Assembly (NCBI RefSeq): GCF_000427445.1
Contig: NZ_ATYA01000001.1
Location: 62,001-126,000 of the forward strand
Direction of reading: 5' to 3'
Source: Methylocapsa acidiphila B2
Lineage (GTDB): Bacteria; Pseudomonadota; Alphaproteobacteria; Rhizobiales; Beijerinckiaceae
DNA: 64,000 nt
Part shown: in pieces, positions 1,550 through 33,804 of the stretch
Layout: every line of letters begins with the position of its first letter
Position numbering within the stretch: position 1 is the first letter of the stretch
The notes under the pieces: generated by a model
The model's input: only the letters and a program-made list of their open reading frames with translations
Told to the model about the DNA's origin: nothing
The model's database searches: none
Position numbers and translations under genes: made by a program

Positions 1550-1781
1550 TAGATCCCAATGAGCCTCTTCAGGAATTGTCGCCGGTCTCGCCGTTTCGGA
1601 AAATAGATCCACGGCCACGCTTCAGGTACTCGAAGATATTGTTAGACGCCACGCTAAATTTGACGCAATCTCGACGCGCGCCATCGTCGACGCACGCGAG
1701 AAATGCGTGCAAGTAGGCGCCGAAGGGTTTCCTCGGCATGCGAAGCAGGGCGAGCGATCTCGATGGAATTCAGACGCAGAG

Positions 1782-3513: not shown

Positions 3514-3526
3514 CCCTGTGGAGAAG

Positions 3527-3690
3527 GCACCAGCCGAGCTGGGCGTTTCCGAACATCGGGCCTGCGCCGGCCTCGGTCATCACGCGCCGCACAGCGGAAG
3601 ATCGTGAGGCCCACGAGGACGAGGGCAGCGCTGACCGTCGACATCATCGAGTTGGCCAAGATATTTGGTCGGTGCGGCTACGCGTCACAC
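3527..3690 (+). pseudogene. IS3 family orfB remnant
   Basis: A short stretch between the ISL3 element and the helicase gene translates, with stops and frame changes, to text typical of IS3/IS407-like OrfB: ELGVSEHRACAGLG, then LTVDIIELAKIFGRCGYA. The homologous motif in intact copies is of the form DIIELAxQFGRYGYR. It is a decayed fragment that marks the left border of the helicase-PLD operon. Confidence 0.45.
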
Positions 3691-6660
3691 TGGGGACCTG
3701 CCGATGTCAGATCTGCCGTCAACGAGTGGTCCAAGCCGCACGCGCAGGTCCTCGGTGAGCGCCGAGGGTAGCGGAGGCACCTCACTCTCATCGAGATTCC
3801 CGCGACCGATCTCCGGCGGCACGCCGAGTAGAAAGTCGAGCCACTTCTCTCGCTCCTTTACGCGCCGGTATCGCGATGGGTCGATGGTGCGCTCCAGTAG
3901 CGGAGTGTCGATGAGGATGTGTCCATCGGCCCCGCCTGTCTCGGTCAGCCATCGCTCGGCGAGGGAGCCGTGGCGATCAACGCGCCCGACGCGTTGCTCC
4001 ATGTCTGCGGGGTTCCAGCGTAGGTCGTGGTGCACGACGCGTCGGCACTGGCGCTGAAGGTTGAGGCCTTCCTGCATCGTCCGGTTCCCGACGAGGATCA
4101 TCGGGAAGAACGGCGTGTTGAAGGCGTCCTGGATTTTCTGCCGCCGTTCGCCCTGGTTGCCTCGCGCCGCGAACTCGCCGAGGGGCAGTGCGTAGCGAAG
4201 AACCTCAGCGCGTTCCTCCTTGCCGAGTTGCGGGAGGTACTCCAGAAACTCGCCAAGGTGGCGGCGCCATGGACACGTTGGGTCCGTCCACCACGCCTCC
4301 AGTGCGTCCCGGAACGAAGCGGACGTGGCCTCCGACCGGCCTGCCCGCTCAAGCACGTCCACCACGAACGGGACCTGCCGCCGCGTAAAGAAGGTCCGTA
4401 CCGCCTCGACGATGGCAACGCGCTCCGTCGCGTCCCACATCGTCATCTGCTCCCGGAATGGGAACCAGATGGATCGGCGGGAGGGGGCCAGGAGCGTGCG
4501 GAGAGTGTCTTCCGAGAGTGTCCACTCGATTGACAGGTCGGTTGCACCCGCCATGTCTTTTTCTTCGGCATCCTCGACGAGGCCGATCCCGAGACGAGGG
4601 TAGCTCGGGTCGAGGATCCGCAGAGGAAGACCGCCGTACTGACCGAAAACCTTCGTGCGGCGGCGCTCGAACCAGCGGGCGACCGCGACATCCACGCAAC
4701 GCCCAGCCATCCGATAGTCGAGGCGGGTTGCGTTGGTGCCGCTCGAACGCTGCGACCGCAACACGTCGTTGGCATCGGCCACGAGCATGGAGACATCGCC
4801 CCACAACTCAAGCGGAAGTGCCGATTCGTCTGGCCTGAGGAACAGCGTGTGCGGGTACGATTCGCGGAAGGCGACGGACAGTTCATCCTGTCCACGCGTG
4901 AACCGCATCGCCCATCGTTGGAAGATGCCGACCTTCCGCTCGTCACCCGATCCGGCACCGAACACCGCCTCCATGTCTGAGCCCGGATACATTCGCTCCC
5001 ACTGAGCGTGGAGTCGGTCCATCCAACGCTTCTCGATCTCCTCGTGGAGGCTGTCGATTGTCGCATTGCGCTCACAAAAAAGGAGGGATTTCTCCCACTT
5101 GTCCGCTGCAGACATTGCCGTTTCGAGGACACTAATGACCTTGGGGTGTACGTCGTCCGCCGCGACCAGGAGCTTCTGCAAAACGCTCTGGTACGCGACG
5201 GCTTCATCAGACGCGCCTTGCTCCTGCACCATCGCGCCCTTACGCGCCGCCGCGAAAGAGGACGCAATGCTCGTCTCAGCCGCCTCGACATGAGACCGGA
5301 CCCCGCTGCGTGCGCGCGCCGTCATCAAGCGCTGGTACATCAGCAGCGGCACCACTGCCCCCTCCTCGGGCGCAATTGGAAGGGGACGATCGTGACGTCG
5401 CTCCCGCTTCCCTGGCTTGAGGCTGCGGATCGCCCACCGGCGGAAGCCGTGCTCGACGCCATGATCCTTCAAACGCCGAAGCTCCCAGACGTACCGTGCG
5501 AGCGTCGCCACGTTTGGGTCGTCGATGCACTCGAGGCCCGGCACCGCTTGTCGCGGGTCAGCGGTTAGCGGGGCAACTGCCGCACAGGCATACCATTCGG
5601 CAAAGGCCGACGCCTGGCGCGAATCTGCGAAGCGCCAAGCCTCTTCGAAGGCTTCATAGGTGCGTTGATAGTCTGCGATGGAGTGGAACAGGGCGTTCAC
5701 GTCGTCGGGGAAGCCCGGCCGCACCTCGCTGGCACAGCCGAACAAGTCGAACACGCGCCGGAGTTCCTCTACGCCGAGTTGGAAGGGCGTGGCTGTGAGG
5801 AACGTCGCACCCTTGAAGCGGCCGCCGAGTACCTGCGCCACCGCCTGCGCCTGGACGGTCCAAGGGTTCTTCAGCTTGTGTGCCTCGTCCACGATGAGGA
5901 GGTCGAACTTCGGCAGTACTTTGCGCACAAGTTGGAACCTTACCCGATCCAACGCCTTTTTCACTCTCCACGCGTTTGTGAAGGCGTCGACGCCATCCGA
6001 ATTGTAGAGGTCGTCGAGGCCCGCGTGACCTCCCCGTTCCCCCTTGAAGGCGGCGGTCGGCAGCCTCCCGAAATCGACCGCTGTCCGGCCAAGAAAGTGG
6101 TGCCCGTCGCACACCTGGACGCCGCTTGCCTCGATCCGGCGCCGGATCGCAGCGCGCGTGGGTCCGGCCAGTTCGAGGTGTGTGAACCACAAATCAAGTA
6201 GGAAGCCGCGCTCGGCATGGCCGCGTGCGCTCGTGAAGACGTTTATTGGAGCGAACACGACGCGATGCCGCGCCGTCGCGTCGGGCAGTTCGGTGATATG
6301 CCCAACCTCATGGAACGTGTCCTTCGGGAAGCCGCCGTAGAATCCCTTCTGCTGGAACGTCTGTGCGGAGCGGAGCCACTGATGGTTGAGGTCCGGCCCG
6401 GGAGTGACCACGAGGACGTGGGGCTTACGGTCCTCCCCACGAGCAATCTCGAACGCGCAGGCCAATAGCCCGAGCGCCTGGTATGTCTTCCCCATGCCGA
6501 CCTCGTCGGCGAGTAGGACGCCCGGCTCGCGGTCAAGGATGCTGAGCGCGGCGAGGACGGTGTCCTCCTGCAGCCGGATCGCCGTGTCGGAGATCCGCTC
6601 CTGTTGCTGCAGCGCATCAAGGTGGAGGAAGCCCCGCAGCCAGGTCAAGTCGCGCGTCAT
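3685..6660 (-). CDS. SNF2-type DEAH helicase of a three-gene candidate defence operon
   Basis: A 991-residue superfamily 2 helicase. Walker A is ADEVGMGKT at residues 51-59, the DEAH box is at 258-261 (LLIVDEAHKLKNPW) and motif III is LTATP near 288-292. The C-terminal helicase lobe, with motifs V and VI, is at about 854-900 (MQEGLNLQRQCRRVV, QRVGRVDRHG). The long insert between the lobes (about 400-800) has no recognised domain. It would act as a DNA translocase in the cytoplasm. The ATG overlaps the stop of the PLD gene by four bases (ATGA), so it is the last gene of a translationally coupled operon. Helicases of this kind paired with PLD proteins occur in DISARM and related defence loci, but I see no DrmB/DUF1998 or methyltransferase here. 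Confidence 0.88.
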   Translation of the reverse strand: MTRDLTWLRGFLHLDALQQQERISDTAIRLQEDTVLAALSILDREPGVLLADEVGMGKTYQALGLLACAFEIARGEDRKPHVLVVTPGPDLNHQWLRSAQTFQQKGFYGGFPKDTFHEVGHITELPDATARHRVVFAPINVFTSARGHAERGFLLDLWFTHLELAGPTRAAIRRRIEASGVQVCDGHHFLGRTAVDFGRLPTAAFKGERGGHAGLDDLYNSDGVDAFTNAWRVKKALDRVRFQLVRKVLPKFDLLIVDEAHKLKNPWTVQAQAVAQVLGGRFKGATFLTATPFQLGVEELRRVFDLFGCASEVRPGFPDDVNALFHSIADYQRTYEAFEEAWRFADSRQASAFAEWYACAAVAPLTADPRQAVPGLECIDDPNVATLARYVWELRRLKDHGVEHGFRRWAIRSLKPGKRERRHDRPLPIAPEEGAVVPLLMYQRLMTARARSGVRSHVEAAETSIASSFAAARKGAMVQEQGASDEAVAYQSVLQKLLVAADDVHPKVISVLETAMSAADKWEKSLLFCERNATIDSLHEEIEKRWMDRLHAQWERMYPGSDMEAVFGAGSGDERKVGIFQRWAMRFTRGQDELSVAFRESYPHTLFLRPDESALPLELWGDVSMLVADANDVLRSQRSSGTNATRLDYRMAGRCVDVAVARWFERRRTKVFGQYGGLPLRILDPSYPRLGIGLVEDAEEKDMAGATDLSIEWTLSEDTLRTLLAPSRRSIWFPFREQMTMWDATERVAIVEAVRTFFTRRQVPFVVDVLERAGRSEATSASFRDALEAWWTDPTCPWRRHLGEFLEYLPQLGKEERAEVLRYALPLGEFAARGNQGERRQKIQDAFNTPFFPMILVGNRTMQEGLNLQRQCRRVVHHDLRWNPADMEQRVGRVDRHGSLAERWLTETGGADGHILIDTPLLERTIDPSRYRRVKEREKWLDFLLGVPPEIGRGNLDESEVPPLPSALTEDLRVRLGPLVDGRSDIGRSPV

Positions 6661-8780
6661 AACCCCCCCTCGTAGAAGTTACTCAGGTCGGTGATGCCCG
6701 GCGTTCCAGGCGCGGGCACCGAGACGCTCTCTCGGATCCATTGCACGACTTCGTCGCGCAACGTCGCCTTGTCACTTCCCGTGGGGTCGCCGTCGAAGGT
6801 GACACGCTTGAGCACCCGCGCAAGCTCCTGGGCATAGATCCAGGCCTCTGCGCGCATCAGCTCCCCACGCTCCGGGGCTTCCACGATGCGCTCCGCCAGC
6901 CGACACACCCCACAGGGGCCCCGAAGCTGCGCCTGGAATGCGCCGAGTGACGGAGCACGGACGAGTTCCGCGCCGATGGACAGGAGCGCCCGGAACACCT
7001 CTCGTGGGCTAAGAGCCGTTCCGAAGACCGACGCGGTATCCGACGACACATCCCGTGCGGCGGCTGCGGCCGCGCGCCGCGCCGCTATCCCCGCCGGGGT
7101 GTACCGGCCCGCGTGGAGCAAAAGCAGCTCCTGGAGGTCGAGCTCGCCGGTGATTCCAGCCACGGGGAGATCAAGGACGTGTTCGATCCGGAGCGGCACC
7201 CGCGCGGTCACTCTGGCTTCGGGGTCGGTGACCTCGAGCTCGCAGCACACAGGGTCGAGGTCGAACTCATCGAACACGGATGCTGTCGCGGGCACGCTGT
7301 CGAGCAGGATGCGACGGTCCGCTGTTGGGTAGGAGAGCATCAATCGCGGCGCGCCGGGTCGCCAAGTCACTCGCACGCGGCGCTCTCGCGCGTCGAAGAC
7401 AGCGTCGTCCACCCAGCGGGCAGGTGACGGCGCGAGAGCTGTGTACGATCGACCGTGCAGGGTCACCTGTTGCCGCGGCACCCACACGAGCCCGTCGCAA
7501 AGAAGGCCGAGGTGGTAGTGCCCATCCAACACGAGGTGCAAGGCGCATTCCACGTTGGCGCCGGTACGTAGGAGCGCGGCCGCGGAGGCGTTGGGGGAAC
7601 CGACGATCACGTGTGTCCGCTTCTTCTTGCCCTCGGTAACGGCTACCGCAAGGAGCTTGCCATGCAGCGGCTGCCGGTAGATGCGCCCCTCGCGCCTGTG
7701 GATCTCGGGGAACAGCCAGACCCGCAACGACGCACGATGCGCGGCCCGGTTTAGGAGGTCCTCCGGTGCGAAGGCTTCCAACTGCCCGGTGGGCCACGCC
7801 TTGCCCTCAGCGCACAGTGCGTTGAGTTCGCGCGTGCTCCGCCGGCCTCCCGCGCGTCCGTCATTGAACTCGAAGTTGTGGCCAACGTGTCTCCCGAGCA
7901 CGAACCACGAAGTGGTCTCCTTCCCTCGCGCCCCATCGACGACGCCCCACAGATCTCCAATGTGTGTGTCCAGATCGCGTGAATCGTCGCCGCCCGGCGC
8001 GACCGGGTTTCCCTCCCAAGATACGCCCACGTCGAGCACGAAACCGTGCGCACGCCGCCCCTCAGTAGCGTCAAGCAGGCGGTCAAATATCGCGCCGTCG
8101 GGTGGTGCCCCATCCTCCTGGTGGAAAGGAGCGAGCACGCCAATACGTTCGACCTTCGCATCGGGAGGCACCCGCGCGAGAAACGCATCGAGGAGCGGCA
8201 TCTTGTCGTACGTGTGAAGCAGCCATGGCGCCGCCGTGTCCGCGTCGTCTTCCGGGCCGAGGCGCGGCCGAAGCTCGGCTAGGAACCGGCTCCAGGCCTC
8301 GCCGTGTGCGCCAGAGGCTTCCACGAAAGCCACGACCCGCCGGAGCAGCCCCGCATCACGAGCGTAGTCGAGGGGAAGCACCGCTGAAAGCTCGGCGTTG
8401 TCGCCATAGCCTCCTGGTGTGAGGTTTCCGGAACCGACCACCATCCGCGCACATGGGCCGTAGAGGAGGAGAGCGAGCTTTGGGTGAAATAGCCGCGCGG
8501 TATCTGCGCGTAGCAGGTCGTAGGGCAGGCGCTGGCCGCCCCGCAGCATCCCCGGATCGGCGATAACGAGCACCGGCGTCTCGACCAATTTGCGCCGTCC
8601 TTCGTCGAGGAAGCGCCGAGTGGCCTCGGTCGGATCCTCTTGGAGTTGAAGCACGGCTGCCAGGACCTCCTCCTCGAAAAACCGCGCGTCGAACGTATAG
8701 GAAAGGAAGACTGCGCCGTGACAAGCACCGGCCGCGCCAACGAGGCGACCGAGCGCATCCGTCGTAACGATGTTGCCCAT
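6657..8780 (-). CDS. phospholipase D-like nuclease of the candidate defence operon
   Basis: A 707-residue protein with two PLD-type half sites. The first is FHPKLALL near residues 98-105 with GSGNLT at 116-121. The second is LHGKLLAV near 372-379 with GSPNAS at 394-399. Each has the HxK and the downstream Ser/Asn of the family, but the Asp of classical HxKxxxxD is not evident, as is common in nuclease-type members. No signal peptide is visible, so it should act in the cytoplasm on nucleic acid. I took the ATG at 8780, which overlaps the previous gene's TGA (ATGA), rather than the longer frame to 8921. The next gene, the helicase, is also ATGA-coupled. Confidence 0.85.
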   Translation of the reverse strand: MGNIVTTDALGRLVGAAGACHGAVFLSYTFDARFFEEEVLAAVLQLQEDPTEATRRFLDEGRRKLVETPVLVIADPGMLRGGQRLPYDLLRADTARLFHPKLALLLYGPCARMVVGSGNLTPGGYGDNAELSAVLPLDYARDAGLLRRVVAFVEASGAHGEAWSRFLAELRPRLGPEDDADTAAPWLLHTYDKMPLLDAFLARVPPDAKVERIGVLAPFHQEDGAPPDGAIFDRLLDATEGRRAHGFVLDVGVSWEGNPVAPGGDDSRDLDTHIGDLWGVVDGARGKETTSWFVLGRHVGHNFEFNDGRAGGRRSTRELNALCAEGKAWPTGQLEAFAPEDLLNRAAHRASLRVWLFPEIHRREGRIYRQPLHGKLLAVAVTEGKKKRTHVIVGSPNASAAALLRTGANVECALHLVLDGHYHLGLLCDGLVWVPRQQVTLHGRSYTALAPSPARWVDDAVFDARERRVRVTWRPGAPRLMLSYPTADRRILLDSVPATASVFDEFDLDPVCCELEVTDPEARVTARVPLRIEHVLDLPVAGITGELDLQELLLLHAGRYTPAGIAARRAAAAAARDVSSDTASVFGTALSPREVFRALLSIGAELVRAPSLGAFQAQLRGPCGVCRLAERIVEAPERGELMRAEAWIYAQELARVLKRVTFDGDPTGSDKATLRDEVVQWIRESVSVPAPGTPGITDLSNFYEGGL

Positions 8781-10204
8781 CAGGTCACCCGCCCGAGGTC
8801 GTGCAAAAGCTCCGTCATGGTTCCGACCTTGTAGCCGACAACCCATACCCGGCCGTCGAGGCTCCATGATCGATAGTTGCCCGCCTCCAGCAGCACGCGG
8901 TCTCCGTCGAGGGCGAGCCACGCCCCGGATTTTCCCCGCGCCACCTGGACCTGCCGGTGCAGATCTAGGAGGTGGACCAGGAAGTCGTTCGGCCGAGTGG
9001 GGTCGAGCTTGGCCGCCGCCGCGGCGAAGGCCCCCCCATGCGCCTCTTCCCGCACCATCCGCGCAGCATCGGGTGTGTCACGCCACGCTGCCAAACAGCT
9101 CGCGACGTGGGCAGCAGCATCCACATCAAGCAGGCACGCAGCTGCCACCGTAGCGAACGGCGCCTGATAACCGCCGTCGAGCACGGCGCGGTACGCGCGG
9201 TCGAAGCATGCCCGGAGCGCGGAGGCGAGGTCACCAAACACGACCGCGACACGTGCGTTCCGAGCGACCTCCAGCGAGGGCTTGCCCCACTGGCCTGATG
9301 CTACCCCGTCAATGAAGGTGCGTGTGTCGGCGACGCCGTCAGCGCGTGCATCCACCAGCCATCGCGCCATCTCCGGCAACACCCGGAGCGCGATCGGCGG
9401 CGGATGCTCGTCGATCAGGAGCCCGCCGAGCCGCGCCTGCAAGTCTTTTCGCTGCCATATCATGGACAGGCGGCATCGACGACCGAGCGATTTCAACGTC
9501 GTCCGACCGTGGCTTTCGATTGCGTGGGTCGTGCCCGGCTTGAGGCATTCCCGGACGAAGCTGTCGAACTCGTCGCCCGCCTCGCCCTTCGCCCACATCC
9601 AGTCCGCCAACTCGGCACCGATAGGCGTCGGGCGAAGGACGTCCGGCGAGAGTAGACCGTGCTGTACCAGGGAACTCCGGTAGGCCCCCATCGCTCCCAG
9701 CTCGATCTGGCGGGAAATGAGTGGGTAGTCGAGGGCGAGGTGACCGCCCCCGCGCGACCGCCAAGCGCGTACCACGCCGTTCTTGCCCCGCATCGCGTCA
9801 GTGTTCGGAATTGCGCCGTCGAAGAACGCGCATATGGCGAGCGCCCAGAGCCGTTCCCATCGCTCGAACCACGTGCGCCGGTTGTCGTCGTTCGCGACCA
9901 CTCCGTGTTCGTGGAGAAGATCGTCAACGGTGCGGAGGCCGTAGCAGACCATCACGTAGTAGAAGGCACGGCTAGTGCGGGTGGTGAATCCTGGCCAGAG
10001 GACATTGCCAATTTGCTGTTGAAGGTGGTCGATAGCGAGAGGATCCTCGGGGGTGAAGTCACCGCTGTCGAGACGGGGGGCGGACCAGCTGAGTGCCTCT
10101 ATGGGTGAAATGGCGGAGGTCACTGTAGGGTTCACCACGTATGTTACCCGTTGAAAAATTATGGACTTGACCTGGCTCTTCGACCTTTCCGTGACGGGTG
10201 TCAA
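8780..10204 (-). CDS. DUF6361-like protein, first gene of the candidate defence operon
   Basis: A 474-residue protein of unknown function. Its N-terminal block (LWPGFTTRTSRAFYYVMVCY near residues 69-88) resembles the LFPGTSTIQTRARYFLFVPW-type signature of DUF6361, a family I associate with helicase and PLD genes; this is recognition from memory, not a search. The rest is helical with no catalytic motif I can name. The start is uncertain: TTG at 10204 gives the longest frame, while GTG at 10138, 10135 or 10123 would still keep the conserved block. It opens a three-gene operon with ATGA coupling to the PLD gene. A cluster of 19-bp repeats begins immediately upstream. Confidence 0.7.
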   Translation of the reverse strand: MTPVTERSKSQVKSIIFQRVTYVVNPTVTSAISPIEALSWSAPRLDSGDFTPEDPLAIDHLQQQIGNVLWPGFTTRTSRAFYYVMVCYGLRTVDDLLHEHGVVANDDNRRTWFERWERLWALAICAFFDGAIPNTDAMRGKNGVVRAWRSRGGGHLALDYPLISRQIELGAMGAYRSSLVQHGLLSPDVLRPTPIGAELADWMWAKGEAGDEFDSFVRECLKPGTTHAIESHGRTTLKSLGRRCRLSMIWQRKDLQARLGGLLIDEHPPPIALRVLPEMARWLVDARADGVADTRTFIDGVASGQWGKPSLEVARNARVAVVFGDLASALRACFDRAYRAVLDGGYQAPFATVAAACLLDVDAAAHVASCLAAWRDTPDAARMVREEAHGGAFAAAAAKLDPTRPNDFLVHLLDLHRQVQVARGKSGAWLALDGDRVLLEAGNYRSWSLDGRVWVVGYKVGTMTELLHDLGRVT

Positions 10205-10212
10205 CTGTCACG

Positions 10213-10560
10213 CTGCAGTTAATCGCGAGACGGCCATTCATCCCGACTTCAATGGCTTACGATTGCATATAATTTGCTACTGTGCAGTTTATCGTGAAAC
10301 AAGGAACGGATTTATGCAGTTTATATGAGATTGTATGCCATTGACGTTGGGAAATATTCGCGTTCACCACGGCGTCAGAAATACGATAGTGGCCATCGGC
10401 GCGAAGTCGTTTAACCTCTAAGCACGCTTCGTCGACGTAGTCTTGACAATGTCTATTCCAATCTCACATTTGCAGCATATCTGAGACTGGATGGTTGTTG
10501 AGTCTCACAATTTACTGCAGCAGTTTTCACCAACCGGGTCAGTCTCACCATTACGTACAG
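10213..10560. repeat. six-copy 19-bp repeat cluster upstream of the candidate defence operon
   Basis: Six related sequences are seen: CTGCAGTTAATCGCGAGAC (10213), GTGCAGTTTATCGTGAAAC (10282), ATGCAGTTTATATGAGATT (10314), TTGCAGCATATCTGAGACT (10470) and two inverted copies, which read CTGCAGTAAATTGTGAGAC (10502-10520) and CTGTACGTAATGGTGAGAC (10542-10560). Two of the intervals (copies 2 to 3 and 4 to 5) are exactly 32 bp. Mixed orientation and irregular spacing argue against CRISPR and fit protein-binding sites. They lie just upstream of the DUF6361-like gene. Confidence 0.7.
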
Positions 10561-10801
10561 CGCGACATCTATTACGAATTTTTCAATCTGGCGAAGTTCT
10601 GGAACAGGCTGTTCCGGCCATTGATTCGGTTGCGAACTAGCTTCGTCCATCGTCCCTCGAAGGGCGTCTTTCCGCCAGTGGGCGTCACCGACTTCGGACT
10701 CGCAAACTTCGTTGATTTGACCAAAATCCGCAAAGAGCTGAAATCCCCCTACAAGTGGTGATGCATCGCTTGTCCAACGGCCGGCAGTCTAAGGGGAATG
10801 C
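10561..10801. other. intergenic, no supported gene
   Basis: This stretch follows the repeat cluster and precedes the 3' end of the spermidine-synthase-like gene. A plus-strand frame (10495-10761) covers it and two of the repeats, but it lacks a ribosome-binding site and has no recognisable family. I see no further repeat copy here. Confidence 0.4.
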
Positions 10802-11575
10802 TTACGTCGGAAACAAATATTGTTCCGCGGATACGTCAGAAACGGACGCATCCTTTCCCAAACACGCGATCCAGATGACGTGCCGTGCTCCGCCACGCGC
10901 TCCGTTGGCGCGCACCCGGACTTCATCCACGTCAAAACCGGTCTTGCGAAGTCGCTGGGTGAAATTCCTGTCTGGTCCCGAAGACCATACGGCCAGCACG
11001 CCGCCGGGACGCAGCGCCGCGCGGGCGGCCCGCAGTCCTTCCATGTCGTAAAGCCCGTCATTGGCTTTGCGGCTCAGCCCCTCGGGGCCGTTATCGACAT
11101 CGAGCAAGATTGCATCGTAAGTCGACCGGCCAGACCGTATCAGCCGGCCGACATCCGATTCCAGGATGCTGACGCGAGAATCCGTCAGGCTGCTTTGGAA
11201 GAGCTCCGCCATTGGACCACGGGCCCATGCCACGACGGCGGGCGCCAGTTCCGCGACGATGATCTCGGCCTCGGCGACGACTGCGGCAAGCGCGGCCCGA
11301 AGCGTGAAGCCCATGCCCAGCCCGCCGATCAGTATCCGCGGCCGCTCGCGGGTTTGAATTCTCGCGCAAGAGAGGGTGGCGAGCGCCTCCTCGGATCCGC
11401 TGAGGCGACTATTCATCAGTTCGGTTTGGCCCAGCCTGATGGAGAATTCGGCGCCGCGCTGCATCAGGCGGAGTTCGCCGCCTCCGCCGGGCATTTGCGC
11501 CTTGTCGAGCAGGGACCAGGGAATCAATGATAACTCTTCAGTCAGTTGCGAAACATTTTGCGCTAAAATATGCAT
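10802..11575 (-). CDS. spermidine synthase-like SAM-dependent methyltransferase-fold protein
   Basis: A 257-residue Rossmann-fold protein of the spermine/spermidine synthase superfamily. The SAM-binding glycine loop is ILIGGLGMGFTLRAAL near residues 80-95, followed by an acidic strand end (IIVAELAPAVVAW) and the post-motif region YDAILLDVDNGPEGL. The N-terminal strand text (GGGGELRLMQRGAEFSIRL, ELMNSR) is typical of SpeE-like proteins in proteobacteria that lack proven polyamine activity. Start: ATG at 11575, or TTG at 11527 (LIPWSLLDKAQMP), which better matches the family's usual start. It stands alone on the minus strand. Confidence 0.72.
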   Translation of the reverse strand: MHILAQNVSQLTEELSLIPWSLLDKAQMPGGGGELRLMQRGAEFSIRLGQTELMNSRLSGSEEALATLSCARIQTRERPRILIGGLGMGFTLRAALAAVVAEAEIIVAELAPAVVAWARGPMAELFQSSLTDSRVSILESDVGRLIRSGRSTYDAILLDVDNGPEGLSRKANDGLYDMEGLRAARAALRPGGVLAVWSSGPDRNFTQRLRKTGFDVDEVRVRANGARGGARHVIWIACLGKDASVSDVSAEQYLFPT

Positions 11576-11634
11576 TGGCTCAAAAGCGCGCGCTTGTCAC
11601 GAAGGAACGGTCCATTGCGCCAGTGAGCGAGCCG

Positions 11635-12177
11635 TTAGGGGCGTTGCGTCACAACCATCCGCCACAGCTCCGCCCAGACGAGGGCGTCGGCTTCGGCGCG
11701 GTGGCGGCGATTTTGCTCCGCCTCTTCCCTGGCCTGATGCAGACGCACCTGATCGAAATTTCGATCCGCGGCCGCCCGCTCGAGCAAGATTCCGGGGTCG
11801 GTGCGGCGAATAATGAAAGACGGCTCGACGCCGGCCGCATCAAAAACCTGACGGAGCCACCTTTCGTCATAGGAGCAGGCGTCTGAGAAGAGCTCGCGGC
11901 CGGCAAGTTCAGCATTCATGATCCGGGCGATTTCTTCGACCCGCCGACCATGCTCGCGCAAATGCGCCAGCGAAATGCCGTGCAGCCTTTCCGATTTCGC
12001 GCTCCACGCGTCTCTGATTTTCCAGTCGGGCGCGGGACGAACGAGATGAGCGGCGGAAACGATTTCTTCGCTGTCCATGGCGACGAAAGCCCAGCCGATC
12101 TCAATGATATAGCCGTCGAGGCTCGACGCTTCACAATCGAAGAACACCGGCCAGGACAGGGATGGATCGCTGTTCAT
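11635..12177 (-). CDS. DEDDh 3'-5' exonuclease (RNase T / epsilon-like)
   Basis: A 180-residue exonuclease-fold protein. Exo I is VFFDCEASSLDGYIIEIGWA (Asp-x-Glu), exo II is probably in the FSDACSYDERWLRQVF region, and exo III is HRAEADA near the C-terminus with His and Asp placed as in the DEDDh class. I use the ATG at 12177 (MNSDPSLSW); the upstream extension of the frame to 12327 is low-complexity and not needed. It would remove nucleotides from 3' ends of DNA or RNA; the substrate cannot be read from the sequence. It lies downstream of the AddAB-like genes on the same strand, separated by about 240 bp. Confidence 0.75.
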   Translation of the reverse strand: MNSDPSLSWPVFFDCEASSLDGYIIEIGWAFVAMDSEEIVSAAHLVRPAPDWKIRDAWSAKSERLHGISLAHLREHGRRVEEIARIMNAELAGRELFSDACSYDERWLRQVFDAAGVEPSFIIRRTDPGILLERAAADRNFDQVRLHQAREEAEQNRRHRAEADALVWAELWRMVVTQRP

Positions 12178-12418
12178 TTTAAAGGCATCCGACGGCGCAC
12201 AATCAACAAGCAATATCTGTTTTGGCGGCGTATTCGCGGCGCATGTTTCAGGACTCTCAAAACCGCTCAAGGCGTCACGATGAATCCCTTCGCTATCCAC
12301 GTTGGGCGCTTTTTTTTGCCTGCGCACGCGTCAGGCGCCTTTCCGGTGCGAGGCGCCTGTTTCGCGCGTATCCACATTCTTGCCAGCGCCGGGCGGCCGG
12401 AGACGGCAATCACCGTAG

Positions 12419-15400
12419 CTATCCGGGCAACACCTTGCCCTGCGTCATGAGGACCAGAAAAGCCTGCTTCGCGCCGGTTTCCTGACGATAGGTTTCAATC
12501 TGTGCGCGGTAGGATGCGAGTCGGCTGGCGTCGACCTCGACGTCACTTTTCCAATCTACGATCGCCTCGATATGCCCCTCGGGATCATAAGCGACAGCGT
12601 CGGCGATGCCGGAAATGATAATCTCGCGCTGATCGCCCTGGCGGCTCGCCAGGACCACGAGTTCGGGGACAAGCCGCGGACGCATTTCGGCAATTTCAGG
12701 AAGGTTCAACGTCCTGACGACGGTCGCTGCAATCTCCTCGGGCGCAATCCCGTCCTTCGCCGATTCAGATGGCGCAATCGCAAGCTGTATCAGAAGTTCC
12801 TTCGTGCGCGCGACGAGAGCAGGCGCGTCGTCCGGAGTCTCTCCGTTCAGCACTTCCTCGATCAGTTTGTGAAGGAGCGTTCCACGGGTCGCGCTACCGG
12901 CGACGGGTTGCCGCGCATCCTGGAATTCCTCAAGAGATTCGACGGTTGCAAAAACCGGTTCGCGCCGGAGTTCCGCAGCCTCGCTCGTTTCACTGCGGCT
13001 AGGCTGACGCCATTCGATCTTGCGATGGCTCTCGGTGATGCGCTGCGCTTCCTCGGCGAATATTTCGCGCGATTGAGGGTTTTCCTGAGGAAGGGAAGGC
13101 GACGGCATCGGGTCGCCGACCTCCTCGGGATCTATCGCTGGCTGCGATGGCAAGTCGAATTCGACAAGCTTCGCCCAGGCGCCGTTCGGCAAATCCGGTG
13201 AATGCCGCGGCATCACAAGGAGATCGCGCGCCCGCGTCGCGGCCACATACCAGAGCCGGACCCGTTCGCGATCGAGTTCTTCCGCGTTGCGGGTCTGTAT
13301 ATCTGCATAGACCTCGGGCGCGATTCCGAGAACGGGGATAGAGAACAGATCGGCCCTGCGGTCGTGCATGAGCCCGGAATCCGATTTCGGGCGGCCTGTC
13401 ATGTTGATCGGGATCACGATGGGCCATTCGAGCCCCTTGGACGCATGGATTGTGATGAGGGCGACGAACTGCTCTTCGGCGTCCGGACGGCCCTCGACCT
13501 GACGAACCGCGTCCTCCCAATTCGCGCGCATGTCGCGCGCAAAGGCGCGCAGACCGCGAACATCATAGGCGCGCGACATGTCGAGGAAAACATCGATATT
13601 GGCTTGCGCGCGATCGGCGCCCGCCTTGAAACGCCGCTGAAGCTGCGCCCGGACGTTCAGGATGCCGACGGCGTCGCTCAGCAAGGCGTAAGGCGTCGTC
13701 GAGCGAGCTTGCCTGGCGAGAGATTGCAACGACCGGATAAGTCCGCTCGCGAGTTCATGGCCGATCTCGTCCGGGTCGGTCCAGAGATTGAGCTGGCGCA
13801 GACGATCCGGTTGATCTGGATCGACAGGCAGGCCTTCGGCGATCTCGAGCAATTCGGCTTCCGTCAGCCCGACCAGGGGCCCTCTCAGCAATGCGCCGAG
13901 CGCCAGCGTGTCGCGGCCATCGGCAAGCGTTCGCGTCAAAGCGATGAGATCCTTGATTTCCTGACGCCGGAAGAAGCCCTTTCCCGCCTGGGTCGAAACG
14001 GCGATGCCGCAATTCTCGAGCGCCTCCTCGAATCGCCATAGCTCTGTCCCCACGGGCGCAAGCAGGGCGATATCGCCCAGCCGGGCCGGCCGCAGCGCGC
14101 CATCACGATCTCGGACAAGACGATTGCCAACGAGCCGGCGGCAGAGTTCGGCGATCCGATCCGCCTCGGCGTCGCGCTTTTCGCTGGCTTTCGCATCGTC
14201 TTCGGTCGCGATTTCGAGCGCCGCCACCGCAAGAGTTTTCGGCTCGGCGGTGCGCGTTGCGGCCAGTTCCGTGAAACCCGGCTGGCCGAGGGCCGTCGAC
14301 AACGGGGTTTCAAAAGCGGCGTTTACGAATGTCAGGATCGGTTCGACCGACCTGAAGTTCGCCGTGATTTTCAACAGCGCATCGGCGCCGATGGCGTCGC
14401 GCGCGCTGATATAGGCGTTCACGTCGGCGCCGCGGAAACGGTAGATCGCCTGTTTGGGATCGCCAACGAGAAACAGCGCCCCCGGCCGCAACGTTCGTTT
14501 GAGAGGAGCAGCATCGGGCTCTTCGACGGATTCGCCGCACAGGCGCCAAAGGAGGTCGATCTGCAAAGGGTCCGTGTCCTGAAACTCATCGACCAGAACA
14601 TGGCGAAACCGCCCGGCCAGAGCCTGTCTGACGGTTTCACGCTCGCGCACGAGATCTCGCGCCGTGTAAAGCAGGTCGTCGAAATCGAGCAGCGCGGCGT
14701 CGCGCTTCCAAGTCTGCCAATTCGCGATGAGCCCGTCCATCGATCGGGCGACGCGCGCAAGGACCTCGGCGGCGGTCCGCGTACGGAGCGCGGCGAAGGC
14801 GTCGTGACACGCGTCGTAACGGGATTTGGCTTCCTGATGGGCTTCTGTCCCGGCTGCCTTCGGTCTACCCGCCGCAGCGGCGGCCGTTTGCCATCGGCCC
14901 AGCGTCCTAAGTTGCCGAGCCCCGCCGGCCTGCGTGAAGCAGGCGGACGGATTGGCGAGGTTCAGTATCCCGACCAGACCGCGGCAGGGCGCAGATGCGT
15001 CGCGGGCCAAACCGACGACGGTTTGACCGAGATCGACGAAATGCTGCGCCCTTGACGCCGTTTCCTCTTCCTGAAACTCGATGCGGGCAAGTTCAGCAGA
15101 AAAATTTTCCGTCGCTTTTGTGAATGTCTCGATGAGCGTTGCTGACCAGTCGATGGAGCCCGGACGCGCGTCGCGATTGCGCCGGCGAAAATCGGCGACT
15201 TCCCGAATGAGCTTAAGCCCTCCATCTTCGTCGGCGAGAACGAGCTCGGCGACGATGTCGTCGCCAGCCTCGCCGGAGAGCCGCTCGCGGATCCAGGCGT
15301 CGTAGATTTCGGCGAAGGCGAGGTCCCCCTCAACCGGATCGATGATCTCCGCGCCGGGATCGATCCCGGCTTCGACCGGATAGGGTTTGATCACCGACTG

Positions 15401-15772
15401 CGCAAAACCATGGATTGTCGTGCAGACCAGTTGGTCGATCAGCGTGTTCGCCCGGTGCAGGTTCTTCCTCTGCGCGGGGGAGATGCCTTGCGGAAAGGCG
15501 ATGGCAAGATCCTCAGGGATCTTTTCGTCCACTAGGGCCGTGACGAAACGCGAGATGCGGCTCGTCAATTCGCTGGCTGCGAATTCGGTGAAGGTGATCG
15601 CCGCGATATGCTTCGGCTCAACGCCGCGGGCGAGTAGCATGGCGACGCGGCCGGCCATGATTGATGTCTTGCCCGATCCGGCCCCCGCCTCGACGAGAAG
15701 TGAGCGATCGAGTTCGGTGAGGGCGGCGAAGCGCGCCGCATGATCGGGGAGCTTTGCTTTCCTGCCATCCAT
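12419..15772 (-). CDS. AddA/RecB-like UvrD helicase with PD-(D/E)XK nuclease
   Basis: A 1117-residue superfamily 1 helicase fused to a nuclease. Walker A (VEAGAGSGKTS) is at residues 27-37 and the DExx box is in HVLVDEFQDTDPLQIDLLW. Helicase motifs continue with LVGDPKQAIYRFRGADV and ITIHASKGLEWPIV. The C-terminal nuclease has the GTLLHKLIEEVL helix and catalytic IEAIVDWKSDVE. It should process double-strand breaks as the motor and nuclease subunit. The ATG overlaps the upstream stop as TGATG at 15772, so it is coupled to the AddB-like gene. It looks like an accessory, divergent AddAB pair; whether the chromosome also carries standard addAB is not visible here. Confidence 0.85.
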   Translation of the reverse strand: MDGRKAKLPDHAARFAALTELDRSLLVEAGAGSGKTSIMAGRVAMLLARGVEPKHIAAITFTEFAASELTSRISRFVTALVDEKIPEDLAIAFPQGISPAQRKNLHRANTLIDQLVCTTIHGFAQSVIKPYPVEAGIDPGAEIIDPVEGDLAFAEIYDAWIRERLSGEAGDDIVAELVLADEDGGLKLIREVADFRRRNRDARPGSIDWSATLIETFTKATENFSAELARIEFQEEETASRAQHFVDLGQTVVGLARDASAPCRGLVGILNLANPSACFTQAGGARQLRTLGRWQTAAAAAGRPKAAGTEAHQEAKSRYDACHDAFAALRTRTAAEVLARVARSMDGLIANWQTWKRDAALLDFDDLLYTARDLVRERETVRQALAGRFRHVLVDEFQDTDPLQIDLLWRLCGESVEEPDAAPLKRTLRPGALFLVGDPKQAIYRFRGADVNAYISARDAIGADALLKITANFRSVEPILTFVNAAFETPLSTALGQPGFTELAATRTAEPKTLAVAALEIATEDDAKASEKRDAEADRIAELCRRLVGNRLVRDRDGALRPARLGDIALLAPVGTELWRFEEALENCGIAVSTQAGKGFFRRQEIKDLIALTRTLADGRDTLALGALLRGPLVGLTEAELLEIAEGLPVDPDQPDRLRQLNLWTDPDEIGHELASGLIRSLQSLARQARSTTPYALLSDAVGILNVRAQLQRRFKAGADRAQANIDVFLDMSRAYDVRGLRAFARDMRANWEDAVRQVEGRPDAEEQFVALITIHASKGLEWPIVIPINMTGRPKSDSGLMHDRRADLFSIPVLGIAPEVYADIQTRNAEELDRERVRLWYVAATRARDLLVMPRHSPDLPNGAWAKLVEFDLPSQPAIDPEEVGDPMPSPSLPQENPQSREIFAEEAQRITESHRKIEWRQPSRSETSEAAELRREPVFATVESLEEFQDARQPVAGSATRGTLLHKLIEEVLNGETPDDAPALVARTKELLIQLAIAPSESAKDGIAPEEIAATVVRTLNLPEIAEMRPRLVPELVVLASRQGDQREIIISGIADAVAYDPEGHIEAIVDWKSDVEVDASRLASYRAQIETYRQETGAKQAFLVLMTQGKVLPG

Positions 15773-18420
15773 CACGGCGCCTCCCAAATCTTCGTAGCTT
15801 GCCCGAGTTTTTCCGCCGCCGGCACGCTCTTTCGCGGCAGATAAGCGGCGCCGGCCGGCAAGGCGAACAGAAAATCGTTGTAAGCGTCCGCGGCGGCGAT
15901 GCCCGGCAAGGCCAGTCCGGACTCAATATTCGCCCGCGCAAGGCCGATCGCAGCGGCGAGTTGCGACAGCGCCTCATCGACGTCCGAAAGGGGGCACAGG
16001 GGCTGCTTGTCTTCGGCGGCGCGCGGGTAGAGCAGCGCGGCGTCGACTCTAATGTCGGGCCCGATAAGCGTTTTGACGGCGAAGGCGTAGAGACAGCGCT
16101 GCAACTCATCGCCGCCCCTTATCGCGACATCCGCCATGTCATCGGGCAGCTTCCCTGTCTTGTAATCGACGACCCGGGCCGCGGAGCAATCGCCGGCGAG
16201 ATCCAGCCGGTCGATATTGCCTTGAATGAAGACCCCCGTACCGGGAATCTCGACGCTGCGGGTCGGATCCCAGGGCATATCGGCCTGCGGCGGCCCATCC
16301 TGCCGTCCAAACGGTATTTCCGTCCAGCTCTTCTGCCCGCGCAGTAGCGGGAGCGGATAGGCGAGCGCTTTGAGCGTGAGGTTTTTCGCGTTTTCGAGCG
16401 CGGCGCCCCAGATCACGGGGGGCGGGGTTGGTTGTTCGCGCTCCCAGGCCAGTTTGACCGAAGCAATGGCCTCATCGACGGCTTGCTTCAACGTCGCCTC
16501 AGACGCGTGTCCGAAGCCGCCGGACGCCTCGAGCGATTGTACGGCTTCCTGCAGAATGCTGTGGACGAGAATGCCGAAGGCCAAAGCGTCGAGGTTCAGG
16601 GGCTCTTCAGCGACGTCCGGCTGCTTCCAGCCAAGGGCGTAGCGCCAGACGAAGCGGATCGGGTCCCGCAACAGAAGTTTCAGGGAAGTGGCCGACAGCG
16701 GCCCCTGAAACACGTCCTGGAGGCGCGGGCGTCCGGGACCAACGAGGCCGTCATGAGCGGTGATCTCCGGCCGCGACCAGTCCTCCCAGCAGGCGGCGCC
16801 CGATATTGCGATCGGGGTCTCCCTGAATTCGCCTGGCCGCGCCTGCAGCCGGTCCGATTCGCTGGCGGCATGCTCGGGCGTCCGCCCGCGGCTGAGATAG
16901 ATCTCATCGAAGGCATTTATCAGAGGCGATTTGCCAAGTAGCCGGCCGCCGACGTCGCGCCGGCTGAAGGACATCGCAGCCGATTGCGCGCTGCTCAGGA
17001 TTGTCAGAAAATCCCGCCGGTCGCCGTCGGCGACGGGTAGGGGGTCGAGCTCTTCGATTGGAATGATGTGATCCGGAATCAGCCTGTCTTCGGAAATCCG
17101 GCGGGGCCAACGACCGGAGTTAAGCGCCAGCAGTCGGACAAAGGGCCGCGTCGCGGAGGCGAGCGAAATCGCCGACGTCCAGATGACGTTCGCCGCCGGC
17201 TCGAGCCCATCGGGGATGCGGAGCTGCGCGAGGGTCACCGTCAACGCGGCGGCCGGCCCGTCGGCGAGCGCCTTCCGCCAGAGCGCGAGCGCTTTCCCGG
17301 AAAGAAGTCTTTCGCCTGTGTCCGCCGCTTCTTCGGGTCCCCGCTCGATGAGCTGGAGGACGTCCATCACGAGGTTCGAGCGGTCGATTCCCTCCGGCCA
17401 ATCCTCAGTCGGGACCTGGTCGAACGCCTGCCGCCAGCGCTGGACGGTCGTGAGCGGGGCGTCCTTCGGCAGGACTCGCGCCCAGTCGTTCGGGAGCCCT
17501 GCGAGTGCCGGCGTCGTGTCAGGCAGGAGCTTGAACAGACGGCCGATCCGTTCCTGCGATACGCCTTTCAGCAGCGTTTCGGCCAGAGCCGCCGCGGTCT
17601 GCCCGTCCCGCGTCGTCACCGCGCGTAGGCCGTGGACGAAATGAATCGGAATATTGGCGTCCGCCGAGAGCGCCATGATGTGATCGTCGAAGTCGGCCGG
17701 GCTCGCGGCGGCGATGGCGATGTCTTCGGGACGAGCCTTGCCGCTGGCGATGAGTTCGCGCATCCACCGAACCGCCTCGAGCGCCTCATGCTGCGGCGTC
17801 GCGCATGAAAACAGCGCCACGGTCGGGGCGGGGGGCATCTCCCGGCGGATCTCGACCACCGTTTCCTCCACCCACGATGGAACGGACCTCGCCTCGGCGA
17901 TCCAAACGACCGGAACCGCGTTGGCGAGCGCCAAAAGCAGGGGCCGCCAGCATGGCGACATTTCGCTATGGCCATGGATCTCCAGGGGTCCGATGACCGC
18001 CGGCGCATGACCGATGCGGGCGCAGGCGAGTTCGACGAGTCCGGCCGGGCGCTTCATCGAGGCGGGCAGACGCCGCAGCGTTTCAACTTCAAGCGTGCGC
18101 AGCGCCCGAAGACGAGGTTCGAGCGAAGCGGACAGATCGATCCCGGAGCGCCAGATCTTGTCTAGCGTATCGACCACGGCGCGAACCATGCCTGGAAGCG
18201 TCTTGATCGCGTCGAGATCGCCGAGGCTGCCGACAGACAACGCCTCTCGAACGGCGCTCTGGAGAGCATCAGGGTCGATCGGCTGCAGGAAGCCGCCGGC
18301 GAGCCGGCTCGCCAGCTGCGCCATGGTGAGGATCTGAACGCCATGCTCGCCGCGCCGGGCGGCGCCGACCCGCGCCATGTGGCCAGACAGTCGCGTGTGA
18401 ACGACGATCGTTCGGCGCAT
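15772..18420 (-). CDS. AddB-like PD-(D/E)XK nuclease family protein
   Basis: An 882-residue protein. The C-terminal nuclease domain is clear: FGILVHSILQEAV near residue 615, and the catalytic strand ARVVDYKTGKLPDDM followed by LQRCLYAFAVKTLIG. The N-terminal two-thirds look like the inactive helicase scaffold of AddB/RexB, with no Walker A lysine motif. I do not see the four-cysteine iron-sulphur pattern of some AddB proteins. It would pair with the AddA-like product to resect DNA ends. The start ATG at 18420 overlaps the stop of the upstream fragment as TAATG, and its own stop overlaps the next start as TGATG. Confidence 0.78.
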   Translation of the reverse strand: MRRTIVVHTRLSGHMARVGAARRGEHGVQILTMAQLASRLAGGFLQPIDPDALQSAVREALSVGSLGDLDAIKTLPGMVRAVVDTLDKIWRSGIDLSASLEPRLRALRTLEVETLRRLPASMKRPAGLVELACARIGHAPAVIGPLEIHGHSEMSPCWRPLLLALANAVPVVWIAEARSVPSWVEETVVEIRREMPPAPTVALFSCATPQHEALEAVRWMRELIASGKARPEDIAIAAASPADFDDHIMALSADANIPIHFVHGLRAVTTRDGQTAAALAETLLKGVSQERIGRLFKLLPDTTPALAGLPNDWARVLPKDAPLTTVQRWRQAFDQVPTEDWPEGIDRSNLVMDVLQLIERGPEEAADTGERLLSGKALALWRKALADGPAAALTVTLAQLRIPDGLEPAANVIWTSAISLASATRPFVRLLALNSGRWPRRISEDRLIPDHIIPIEELDPLPVADGDRRDFLTILSSAQSAAMSFSRRDVGGRLLGKSPLINAFDEIYLSRGRTPEHAASESDRLQARPGEFRETPIAISGAACWEDWSRPEITAHDGLVGPGRPRLQDVFQGPLSATSLKLLLRDPIRFVWRYALGWKQPDVAEEPLNLDALAFGILVHSILQEAVQSLEASGGFGHASEATLKQAVDEAIASVKLAWEREQPTPPPVIWGAALENAKNLTLKALAYPLPLLRGQKSWTEIPFGRQDGPPQADMPWDPTRSVEIPGTGVFIQGNIDRLDLAGDCSAARVVDYKTGKLPDDMADVAIRGGDELQRCLYAFAVKTLIGPDIRVDAALLYPRAAEDKQPLCPLSDVDEALSQLAAAIGLARANIESGLALPGIAAADAYNDFLFALPAGAAYLPRKSVPAAEKLGQATKIWEAP

Positions 18421-21454: not shown

Positions 21455-22471
21455 TCAAGTCTTTGGTCCGCCAAGCCGAATGACTGGTCCGCTGTGGTGC
21501 GTGGCCACGGCGGCAGCCTGTCCCGCGAGTTCCGCTCTCAACTCCTCTGGCTCCACGACGGTGACCGCCGTTCCCCAGGTGAACAAATGCCAGCACGTTT
21601 CCAGCGCGCCGCCCGCGCGGAAGCGCACGATCAGGGCGCCGTCCGAATCGCGCTCGGTGCTTTGCGACGGATGAAACATCCAGCCGGCGGCGTCATCAGC
21701 CGCCTCCGGCTCGAAGCGCAGCATCACGTCGATCGGCTCCTCCTGGAATACCCCGAAAGATTGCGCCGCATAGGCCGAGAGATCGAAGTCCTCGCGGCGC
21801 GTGAACCCGCGATCGAGCAAGTCGATTGAGACGATCCGGTCCAGCCGCCACAAACGCATGTCCGGTCGCTGGTCTGCATGGGCGACGAGCCACCCGCGTC
21901 CCCCATAGAGAATGCCATAGGGGCACAGGATGCGCGTCGCCGGCTCCTCTGCGTCTGGGCCATCGTATCGAATGACCACGAGCTGCATCCCGAGGATCGC
22001 GCGGCGCAATGTCGGCAGCACGCCTGCGGCTATGATCGGCCGCGGCCCCGGCCGCATCGCGATGCCCTCGGCCTCCATCAGCGCAGCGACATCGGGCTCG
22101 GCGCGGCGGAGCGCATCCGGCGCCATCACGGCCCGCAATGTGGTCGACGCCTCCCGCAGCAGCGCCGCGCGATCGTCTTCGCCCCGCATGGCGCATTCGC
22201 GCGCTGCGGTTTCGATCGCAGCCACGGCCTCAGGCCGGGGCTCGACGACGCCGACGAGGGCGCTTCCCGGCAGCCGCCAGCGGCGCACCCGCTCTTCATC
22301 CTCCCACCATGTCATCTGATGGAACATGGCCGCCAAGGAATCGCGCAGCCGCTCGGCCGTCCGGCGCGCGACTTCGAGCTCGGCCGCCATTTCGTCGAGC
22401 GTCAGCCCGGTGCGACTCGCAGCGAGGCTGAGGGCAAGACGAAACAGTCGTTGCGAGGGTTGGTAGCGCAT
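21455..22471 (-). CDS. WYL-domain transcriptional regulator
   Basis: A 338-residue regulator. It has an N-terminal winged helix-turn-helix (LTLDEMAAELEVARRTAERL near residues 22-41) and a central WYL-type ligand domain (LVVIRYDGPDAEEPATRIL, then YGILYGGRGWLVAHADQRPD). The C-terminal extension (EEPIDVMLRFEPEAADD) is as in BrxR/CapW-like proteins. I use the ATG at 22471 (MRYQPSQRL), where the family text begins; the frame upstream is not protein-like. WYL repressors often control neighbouring defence genes, and the DUF262-HNH gene follows directly on the same strand. Confidence 0.8.
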   Translation of the reverse strand: MRYQPSQRLFRLALSLAASRTGLTLDEMAAELEVARRTAERLRDSLAAMFHQMTWWEDEERVRRWRLPGSALVGVVEPRPEAVAAIETAARECAMRGEDDRAALLREASTTLRAVMAPDALRRAEPDVAALMEAEGIAMRPGPRPIIAAGVLPTLRRAILGMQLVVIRYDGPDAEEPATRILCPYGILYGGRGWLVAHADQRPDMRLWRLDRIVSIDLLDRGFTRREDFDLSAYAAQSFGVFQEEPIDVMLRFEPEAADDAAGWMFHPSQSTERDSDGALIVRFRAGGALETCWHLFTWGTAVTVVEPEELRAELAGQAAAVATHHSGPVIRLGGPKT

Positions 22472-22616
22472 TGAATGATCGTGACAGCCCGCGTGATTCT
22501 TCGCAATCATTCTCCGGCAGCGGCGCCAAATTTTATCAGCTGCGCCAGCAGGAGGTTCGATTTTCGTGCCGGTATGGTCGGACGCGCCTGAATGAAGAAC
22601 CCGAGCGCGTCCTGGT

Positions 22617-22985
22617 TCAGAGATCGAACGGTTCAAATCTGCGGCCGTCGACGTGGAACTCAAGCAGATCATCCTCCCGATATGTTCCGATGATGAGCGT
22701 CAGCGGTTCCTGAAAATAAGGGCTCGCAGCGCCATTCTCACACGGGTCAAAAACCGGGATTGGTAAAACGCCGGTCACGATGGCTGGCTCGCCATAGTCG
22801 GGGAATTTCCGGTTTTTCAGGCCAGGTTTCCACTTGACGAATTGGCCCTTGGCGAAGGCGTGAAACTGGTCGAGGCGGGAGGCGAGCTCTTCGAGCTTGC
22901 GCTTGCAGAGGTCGGCTGGAGCATCGCTCGGGCCGTCGGTCGAACGAACAACGGGGAAACTTCTGTCCTTGTGGTCATTGCGCAT
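22617..22985 (-). CDS. conserved hypothetical protein, 122 aa
   Basis: A soluble 122-residue protein with the internal text FAKGQFVKWKPGLKNRKFPD and a C-terminal LLEFHVDGRRFEPFDL. The start ATG at 22985 has GGAGG five bases upstream, a strong ribosome-binding site. I do not recognise a named family. It lies on the same strand as, and about 146 bp upstream of, the WYL regulator, so it may share its transcript. Confidence 0.6.
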   Translation of the reverse strand: MRNDHKDRSFPVVRSTDGPSDAPADLCKRKLEELASRLDQFHAFAKGQFVKWKPGLKNRKFPDYGEPAIVTGVLPIPVFDPCENGAASPYFQEPLTLIIGTYREDDLLEFHVDGRRFEPFDL

Positions 22986-33791: not shown

Positions 33792-33804
33792 CGCCCCCAA
33801 CTTC

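Follow-up and report, generated by a model that had tools for sequence, protein, structure and literature searches.

Three adjacent genes in the window, the 64,000-nucleotide stretch of Methylocapsa acidiphila B2 DNA analysed here, are, as far as sequence comparison can tell, an intact, selected and recurrent three-gene defence candidate, and they form a distant branch of an architecture that bears names elsewhere. PADLOC-DB 2.0 holds this architecture twice, as Zac (the DUF6361 protein ZacA, the PLD protein ZacB and the helicase ZacC) and as PDC-M27A, B and C, in which PDC presumably stands for phage defence candidate. The sequence-only reading had matched the set to no named system and had let its novelty hang on this; that statement is overturned, because both PADLOC entries share the architecture of the trio, and the claim of novelty is weakened by that reading's own rule. 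Judged by its scores, the window trio is a separate branch, far from both the Zac and the PDC-M27 models.

Structure and conservation of the three genes

On the minus strand, three adjacent intact ORFs run from 10204 to 8780, from 8921 to 6657 and from 6660 to 3685, and we refer to the corresponding genes as A, B and C. The longest ORF of gene A comprises 474 amino acids with a TTG start at 10204, but the annotation of the close relative described below favours a later start, at the GTG of 10135 or within a few codons downstream (approximately 10123-10135); gene A would thus lie at 8780..10135 and encode a protein of approximately 450 amino acids, the positional counterpart of ZacA/DUF6361 and PDC-M27A. 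Gene B (6657..8780, minus strand) starts with the ATG at 8780 and encodes a PLD-superfamily nuclease of 707 amino acids with two HxK half-sites (754 amino acids in its longest ORF form), and gene C (3685..6660, minus strand) encodes a SNF2/RapA-type SF2 helicase-like motor of 991 amino acids. The genes had been described as joined by two ATGA overlaps; this holds for the B/C junction, whereas A and B meet in a TGATG with one base in common. The close coupling survives this correction, and the trio can be regarded as a tightly coupled operon.

A trio that is 92-94% identical to the window's at the protein level is present on a plasmid of Methylocystis sp. MJC1 (NZ_CP107561.1). When window positions 3385-12500 were compared with MJC1 DNA (30001-39425 of locus L033 and 1-4200 of locus L034), the homology extended from window position 10202 to 3704 and stopped at the edges of the trio. 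The contig of the window measures 186,693 bases in a two-contig genome of 4.10 Mb, and the replicon resembles a plasmid and presumably is one. Because the homology in the stretches compared is confined to the trio block, the trio would seem to have been moved or kept together as one unit. The Ka/Ks ratios against the MJC1 copies (0.12 for A, 0.21 for B and 0.18 for C) argue that none of the three genes is a chance ORF. On the MJC1 plasmid, the trio stands in a run of defence-type genes (L033, 12702-39345) that includes SIR2, Fic and 7-cyano-7-deazaguanine synthase genes, a DNA repair exonuclease with an AAA ATPase, and AddAB-like genes.

Just outside the shared block, the region 10205-10567 carries imperfect inverted ends (TGTC[A/G]CGCTG...GAGAC) with further internal copies facing inward; the whole window has 7 matches to the pattern against 2.6 expected, and as many were obtained in 2 of 100 shuffles. 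The region occurs as a single copy in the genome and may be a small transposable-element relic. Downstream of the trio lies an ISL3-type transposase in two ORFs (1902-3457).

Motor and nuclease

The protein of gene C is a SNF2-type helicase, as had been proposed: Pfam recognises SNF2-rel_dom at 7.5e-12 and Helicase_C at 7.6e-10, the motifs DEVGMGKT, DEAH and QRVGRVDR are intact, and a large insertion separates the two helicase halves. The Walker A lysine, the DEAH acids and the motif VI arginines are invariant across four aligned motors, and the closest solved structure to a profile of these four sequences is RapA (5e-21). The best PADLOC models are PDC-M27C (8.1e-41, 138 bits) and ZacC (4e-31, 106 bits), the match to ZacC being located in the helicase halves common to other SNF2-type families.

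Gene B is found by Pfam only as PLDc_2 at E 0.076, and the PADLOC models ZacB (1.1e-11, 42 bits, partial coverage only) and PDC-M27B (1.2e-4, 19 bits) match it. Profile-profile comparison yielded 95.7% for ZacB (reversed control, 0.6%) and 96.0% for PDC-M27B (reversed control, 0.1%). The half-sites H146/K148 and H420/K422, numbered on the 754-amino acid ORF, are both invariant in the seven aligned sequences of the window, G579, M27 and pair set (7/7), and the corresponding half-sites are likewise invariant in 9/9 ZacB sequences; together with the ZacB match, this bears out the description of gene B as a two-site PLD-like nuclease. Against solved structures, the best match of the PLD profile was 7CLG (2e-5), followed by the exonuclease PLD4 (0.0036) and BfiI (2C1L, 0.062); its matches to 9r1o and 7a9d look like chance. 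7CLG is the restriction enzyme SauUSI (PMC7913695), which was absent from the 55 solved-structure matches of the motor profile. On these comparisons, we regard the homology of motor and nuclease to Zac/PDC-M27 as solid and that of gene A as only suggestive.

A SNF2-type helicase together with a PLD nuclease also recalls DISARM, and a degenerate relative of that system could be proposed, given that gene C matches the PADLOC model DrmD at 1.2e-21 and that DrmC models weakly match the PLD relatives. Gene C, however, scores better with PDC-M27C and ZacC, no DISARM gene set was found among the neighbours scanned, and the only protein recognised there in the place of a DISARM-type DNA methyltransferase was a spermidine-synthase-like SAM protein with weak similarity to mads_2. 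The trio also differs in having no partner with PF09369 (MZB), which we take to be the former DUF1998: this family had no match in the window's genome at E<=0.01, as the sequence-only reading had anticipated for the DUF1998 partner. Its separation of the trio from DISARM stands on both counts, the missing DUF1998 and the motor closer to PDC-M27C and ZacC than to DrmD; we reject membership, and a degenerate DISARM origin appears highly improbable.

Gene A and DUF6361

The identity of ZacA with DUF6361 is evident from the protein of locus L035, which matches Pfam DUF6361 at 9.9e-92 and PADLOC ZacA at 1.7e-136, and in several plasmid records a DUF6361 gene is followed by genes annotated as phospholipase D family protein and helicase. 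Gene A of the window had been called DUF6361-like. Its position does match that of DUF6361 in the related operons, but no Pfam or NCBIfam family, DUF6361 included, was found at E<=1, and the remaining links are weak profile bridges. PADLOC ZacA matches gene A at E 0.0035 (15 bits) and PDC-M27A does not match it at E<=1; the MJC1 copy matches ZacA at 0.0023 with its N-terminus and PDC-M27A at 0.075 with its C-terminus.

In profile comparisons, gene A of the window against ZacA alone gave 6% (reversed ZacA, 1%) and, in a separate earlier comparison, 1.3%. The value was 42% against ZacA combined with the A-proteins of two-gene relatives, and 70% when the pooled window, G579 and M27 A-proteins were compared with the pooled ZacA and two-gene set; the A-proteins of the two-gene relatives themselves gave 85% against ZacA. 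M27A against ZacA (0.3%) did not exceed its reversed control (0.5%), and G579 A against ZacA and window A against G579 A gave 0.4% and 0.2%, respectively. On these weak bridges, we take gene A as probably homologous to ZacA/DUF6361. The predicted structures of gene A and ZacA are mostly helical and of low confidence (mean pLDDT 41.8 and 36.7, respectively). The ZacA profile had a single match among solved structures, at E 0.3, which we take as chance, and no target-recognition domain was recognised in A or B with Pfam, PADLOC and NCBIfam profiles.

Zac and PDC-M27 branches and recurrence of the trio

The window trio resembles Zac in its gene order, in its kinds of protein (a DUF6361-type A, a PLD B with two HxK sites and a helicase C) and in its AddAB-like neighbours; ZacB and ZacC are recognised (1.1e-11 and 4e-31), but B and A reach 42 and 15 bits, against the 547-577 bits that the top five ZacB loci attain. 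It likewise resembles PDC-M27 in order and architecture, and PDC-M27C is the top match of gene C; PDC-M27A, however, misses gene A of the window, gene B reaches 19 bits, and all three components are thus not recognised together (M27C, 8e-41; M27B, 1.2e-4; M27A, none at E<=1). By comparison, the trio of genome G436 (locus L150) is a true PDC-M27, with values of 4.9e-175, 6.7e-225 and 0, and that of G579 (L151) is, like the window's, an unmodelled trio. The window motor scores 127 bits against the G579 motor, 94 against that of G436 and 45-53 against seven Zac motors. M27 trios are also found on plasmids of Vibrio nigripulchritudo and Rhodoferax antarcticus, and a relative lies on a viral contig (L152).

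The co-occurrence check proposed in the sequence-only reading turned out positive, since genes related to A, B and C are repeatedly found side by side. In Zac-seeded searches, 22/24 Zac-branch loci have A-B-C in one order and on one strand, the exceptions being L163, in which gene A is broken, and L039, in which the order is not settled; gene C runs into the contig end in L036 and L040, both counted among the Zac-branch loci. This sample is non-random and consists of ten genome loci (six with a strong ZacB and four others) and 14 plasmid loci hand-picked from 45 records for spread and top scores, which include an archaeon (Halomarina) and a Bacteroidota. In the plasmid of Haliscomenobacter hydrossis (L164, 6510-20134), the Zac trio is flanked by the S gene and the R gene of a type I RM set. 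A ZacB match was obtained in 30 genomes; six strong ones besides the window (391-577 bits) were counted as Zac, and the 23 weak PLD matches were left out of the 24 loci. Of these 23, 14 were inspected (L041-L054): 11 had no A-B-C set and did not enter the gene-order survey, and three (L041, L042 and L043) were pairs of ZacA-like and PLD genes, in which no motor C was recognised within the stretch taken. Such pairs are a possible reduced form.

In the branch of the window and M27, A-B-C stand in order in 7/9 loci (the window, MJC1, L150, L151, L152, L155 and L156), gene B of L152 having been taken from a separate search below the cut-off of the gene-order survey; the exceptions are L154, with a truncated C, and L153, a viral contig with a C-like helicase alone. 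A search of the genomes of 99 relatives with gene B yielded, beyond its own genome, one weak match (E 8.5e-4), and nothing was confirmed with gene B in genome contigs or with two gene A profiles in viral contigs.

The AddAB-like gene pair

An AddAB-like pair is encoded on the strand of the trio, 2.2 kb upstream, with two further genes between. The AddA-like gene (12419..15787, minus strand) encodes a UvrD helicase with a C-terminal PD-(D/E)XK nuclease, and the AddB-like gene (15772..18420, minus strand) encodes a PD-(D/E)XK protein as its partner; the pair is associated with the trio and is only possibly part of the system. Both carry the domains of AddA and AddB and so resemble AddAB/RecBCD, but the AddA-like protein scores 273 bits against a curated AddA cut-off of 860.75 bits. 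The AddB-like gene matches no PADLOC family at E<=1, and only generic UvrD-type models are among the best 25 PADLOC matches listed for the AddA-like gene.

In Niveispirillum (G272) and in G367, an AddB-AddA pair lies four bases upstream of the ZacA of a canonical ZacABC, and its AddA is 49-50% identical to that of the window. This order of five genes is shared by Bradyrhizobium sp. 195, which has a divergent WYL gene as well, by Shinella, Mesorhizobium L-2-11 and Agrobacterium tumefaciens F2 and, found through AddA, by Rhizobiales Y(2018) (L073). A different AddA-like gene directly precedes ZacABC in G664 (L062), and in Komagataeibacter (L154) a relative of the second AddA-like type follows the truncated motor. 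Within the stretch taken, an AddA-like gene is present in 9/24 Zac-seeded loci (L035, L036, L037, L061, L062, L157, L158, L169 and L170), several contigs ending too early to tell, and an AddAB-like pair in 2/9 loci of the window/M27 branch (the window and L154).

Zac trios are significantly associated with the AddAB-like pair. In the alphaproteobacterial samples, besides the window, a strong ZacB was found in six genomes (289 searched) and an AddA of the window's clade in six (279 searched); four genomes have both, with a hypergeometric P of 9e-7 if the two draws hold the same genomes. A count of one genome per genus, which handles relatedness roughly, left three shared of five and five (P 6e-5). 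In two draft genomes (G163 and G158), ZacB and AddA are on different contigs.

The reverse search qualifies this picture. The best 79 loci of a genome-wide AddA scan contain a close group of 19 (L066-L084), in all of which AddB stands beside AddA (19/19, that of L078 being cut by the contig); a Zac trio is found in the stretch taken in 3/19 (L067, L073 and L076). Among ten neighbour proteins from six of these loci are BrxC (L068), HmaA and HEC-07 (L067), SngC (L084), presumably of Shango, and pPIWI (L080). Given that only three of the 19 have the trio and that others have different defence neighbours, the pair resembles a general island module, one that shows enrichment with the trio. The MJC1 trio, furthermore, is without a close AddAB-like pair, a pair of the distant type being approximately 16 kb off, and a close pair is therefore not needed for retention of the trio.

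These loci could be read as a five-gene, two-stage system, in which A-B-C would open foreign DNA and a dedicated AddAB-like clade, distinct from the repair enzyme of the cell, would degrade the ends, with WYL control in some loci and the window trio as a third, unmodelled branch. We consider this reading a tentative one that is more doubtful than not.

Genomic neighbourhood and the question of a methyltransferase

The trio had been placed among other defence-type loci, and the window agrees with this in having a WYL-domain regulator, a GmrSD-like gene and a PDC-S37/Hhe-type gene. The WYL-domain gene (21455..22672, minus strand) is a possible controller of the neighbourhood, its membership in the system being doubtful. 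The GmrSD_N/HEC-05-like gene (19011-21341, 776 amino acids) is probably another defence gene, and the defence-type gene at 35071-40284 encodes a 1737-amino acid helicase with a REase_MTES_1575 end (PDC-S37, 1070 bits; Hhe, 750 bits). An ORF of 106 amino acids at 18420-18740 is a fragment matching the start of ADP-ribosylglycohydrolase, and a group II intron lies at 61895-62116 (Rfam RF02005, 127.6 bits). The genes at 40665-50207 (a UvrD helicase, a SRAP peptidase, a Y-family polymerase, a second IMS/DUF6504 gene and a DNA polymerase III alpha-type gene) resemble a mutagenesis cassette.

Many copies of the trio are carried by plasmids, and the genes of the window include those for AddAB-like, SRAP, Y-family polymerase and DNA polymerase III alpha-type proteins. 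Such surroundings would suit a role in plasmid biology or repair in place of anti-phage defence, for instance DNA-end processing or plasmid competition. This role is nonetheless quite unlikely, because the families of the relatives are listed in a defence database and because several trios have defence-type genes beside them, such as those of WYL regulators or type I RM.

Two genes of doubtful membership separate the trio from the AddA-like gene, a DEDDh 3'-5' exonuclease gene (11635..12327, minus strand) and a spermidine-synthase/SAM-fold-like gene (10802..11575, minus strand). The latter bears on whether the trio is a classical RM enzyme of the NgoAVII or CglI sort, in which a PLD nuclease and an SF2 ATPase are likewise paired (PMC7913695); the SAM-fold-like gene, on the same strand upstream and weakly similar to mads_2, would be its methyltransferase. 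Its product, however, looks like spermidine synthase and not like a DNA methyltransferase, and it lies outside the block shared with MJC1. Of the plasmid loci, 5/17 (L158, L161, L162, L164 and L170) have an annotated methyltransferase within 9-10 kb flanks, which would suit an RM enzyme, and 12/17 have none, which speaks against one; the PLSDB gene tables behind this count are incomplete and may miss methyltransferases. Taken together, these observations make a classical RM enzyme improbable here.

Discussion

We consider it somewhat more probable than the contrary that the trio encodes a three-subunit, ATP-driven DNA-cutting defence complex and is a distant branch of Zac/PDC-M27, as its sequence relationships suggest. 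By analogy with characterised enzymes, it would most likely be a methyltransferase-independent, ATP-driven restriction complex that resembles SauUSI split into subunits. The paired HxK PLD nuclease and the SF2 ATPase are features of PLD-type ATP-dependent restriction enzymes. In SauUSI, one polypeptide comprises the PLD nuclease, the SF2 ATPase and the target recognition domain; recognition of the target triggers ATP hydrolysis and translocation, with the DNA between sites being shredded (PMC7913695). The trio is like SauUSI in having the PLD nuclease and the SF2 ATPase as working parts and unlike it in that SauUSI is a single chain with its own recognition domain and has one PLD site per chain, so that it works as a dimer. 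SauUSI, a type IV restriction enzyme, acts on a methylated target and hence needs no protecting methyltransferase. In NgoAVII and CglI, the nuclease and the ATPase are on two subunits (PMC7913695), which brings them close to the trio as multi-subunit enzymes; they differ in having two subunits, with a B3 domain on the nuclease subunit, and in being RM systems (PMC7913695).

In the proposed mechanism, foreign DNA, whether of phage or plasmid origin, would be recognised either through A, as the recognition or coupling subunit, or through the unassigned C-terminal part of B, and no dedicated methyltransferase would be involved. C would be the motor that hydrolyses ATP and translocates on double-stranded DNA, and B, a single chain with the two half-sites, would cleave or shred the DNA in the way that single-chain SauUSI does. 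The ends so made would be a possible substrate for the AddAB-like helicase-nuclease pair near this and other trios. We infer, in this scheme, the formation of the complex, its target, the cutting, the antiviral effect and the roles of A and of the AddAB-like pair. The nuclease could instead destroy host DNA as well on sensing infection, and the trio would then act by abortive infection. That no self-protection gene was seen conserved with the trio fits such a role, but the combination of a motor with PLD modules is known in restriction enzymes directed against foreign DNA, and we think abortive infection unlikely.

PADLOC lists Zac and PDC-M27, yet no paper on their function was found in the open-licence literature searched; that literature yielded neither a description of a Zac, PDC-M27 or DUF6361 system nor the publication that named Zac, and the available parts of PMC12458937 and PMC12839542 do not describe the trio. 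For the AddAB-like pair, the papers listed made rare mention or none of AddA and AddB. Joining Zac, PDC-M27 and the window trio, with their conserved active sites and the solved cousin SauUSI, provides a testable mechanism for this family. The association with the AddAB-like pair is a more interesting lead than the novelty of the trio: if the pair works with the trio, this would explain how the DNA of a cut invader is disposed of.
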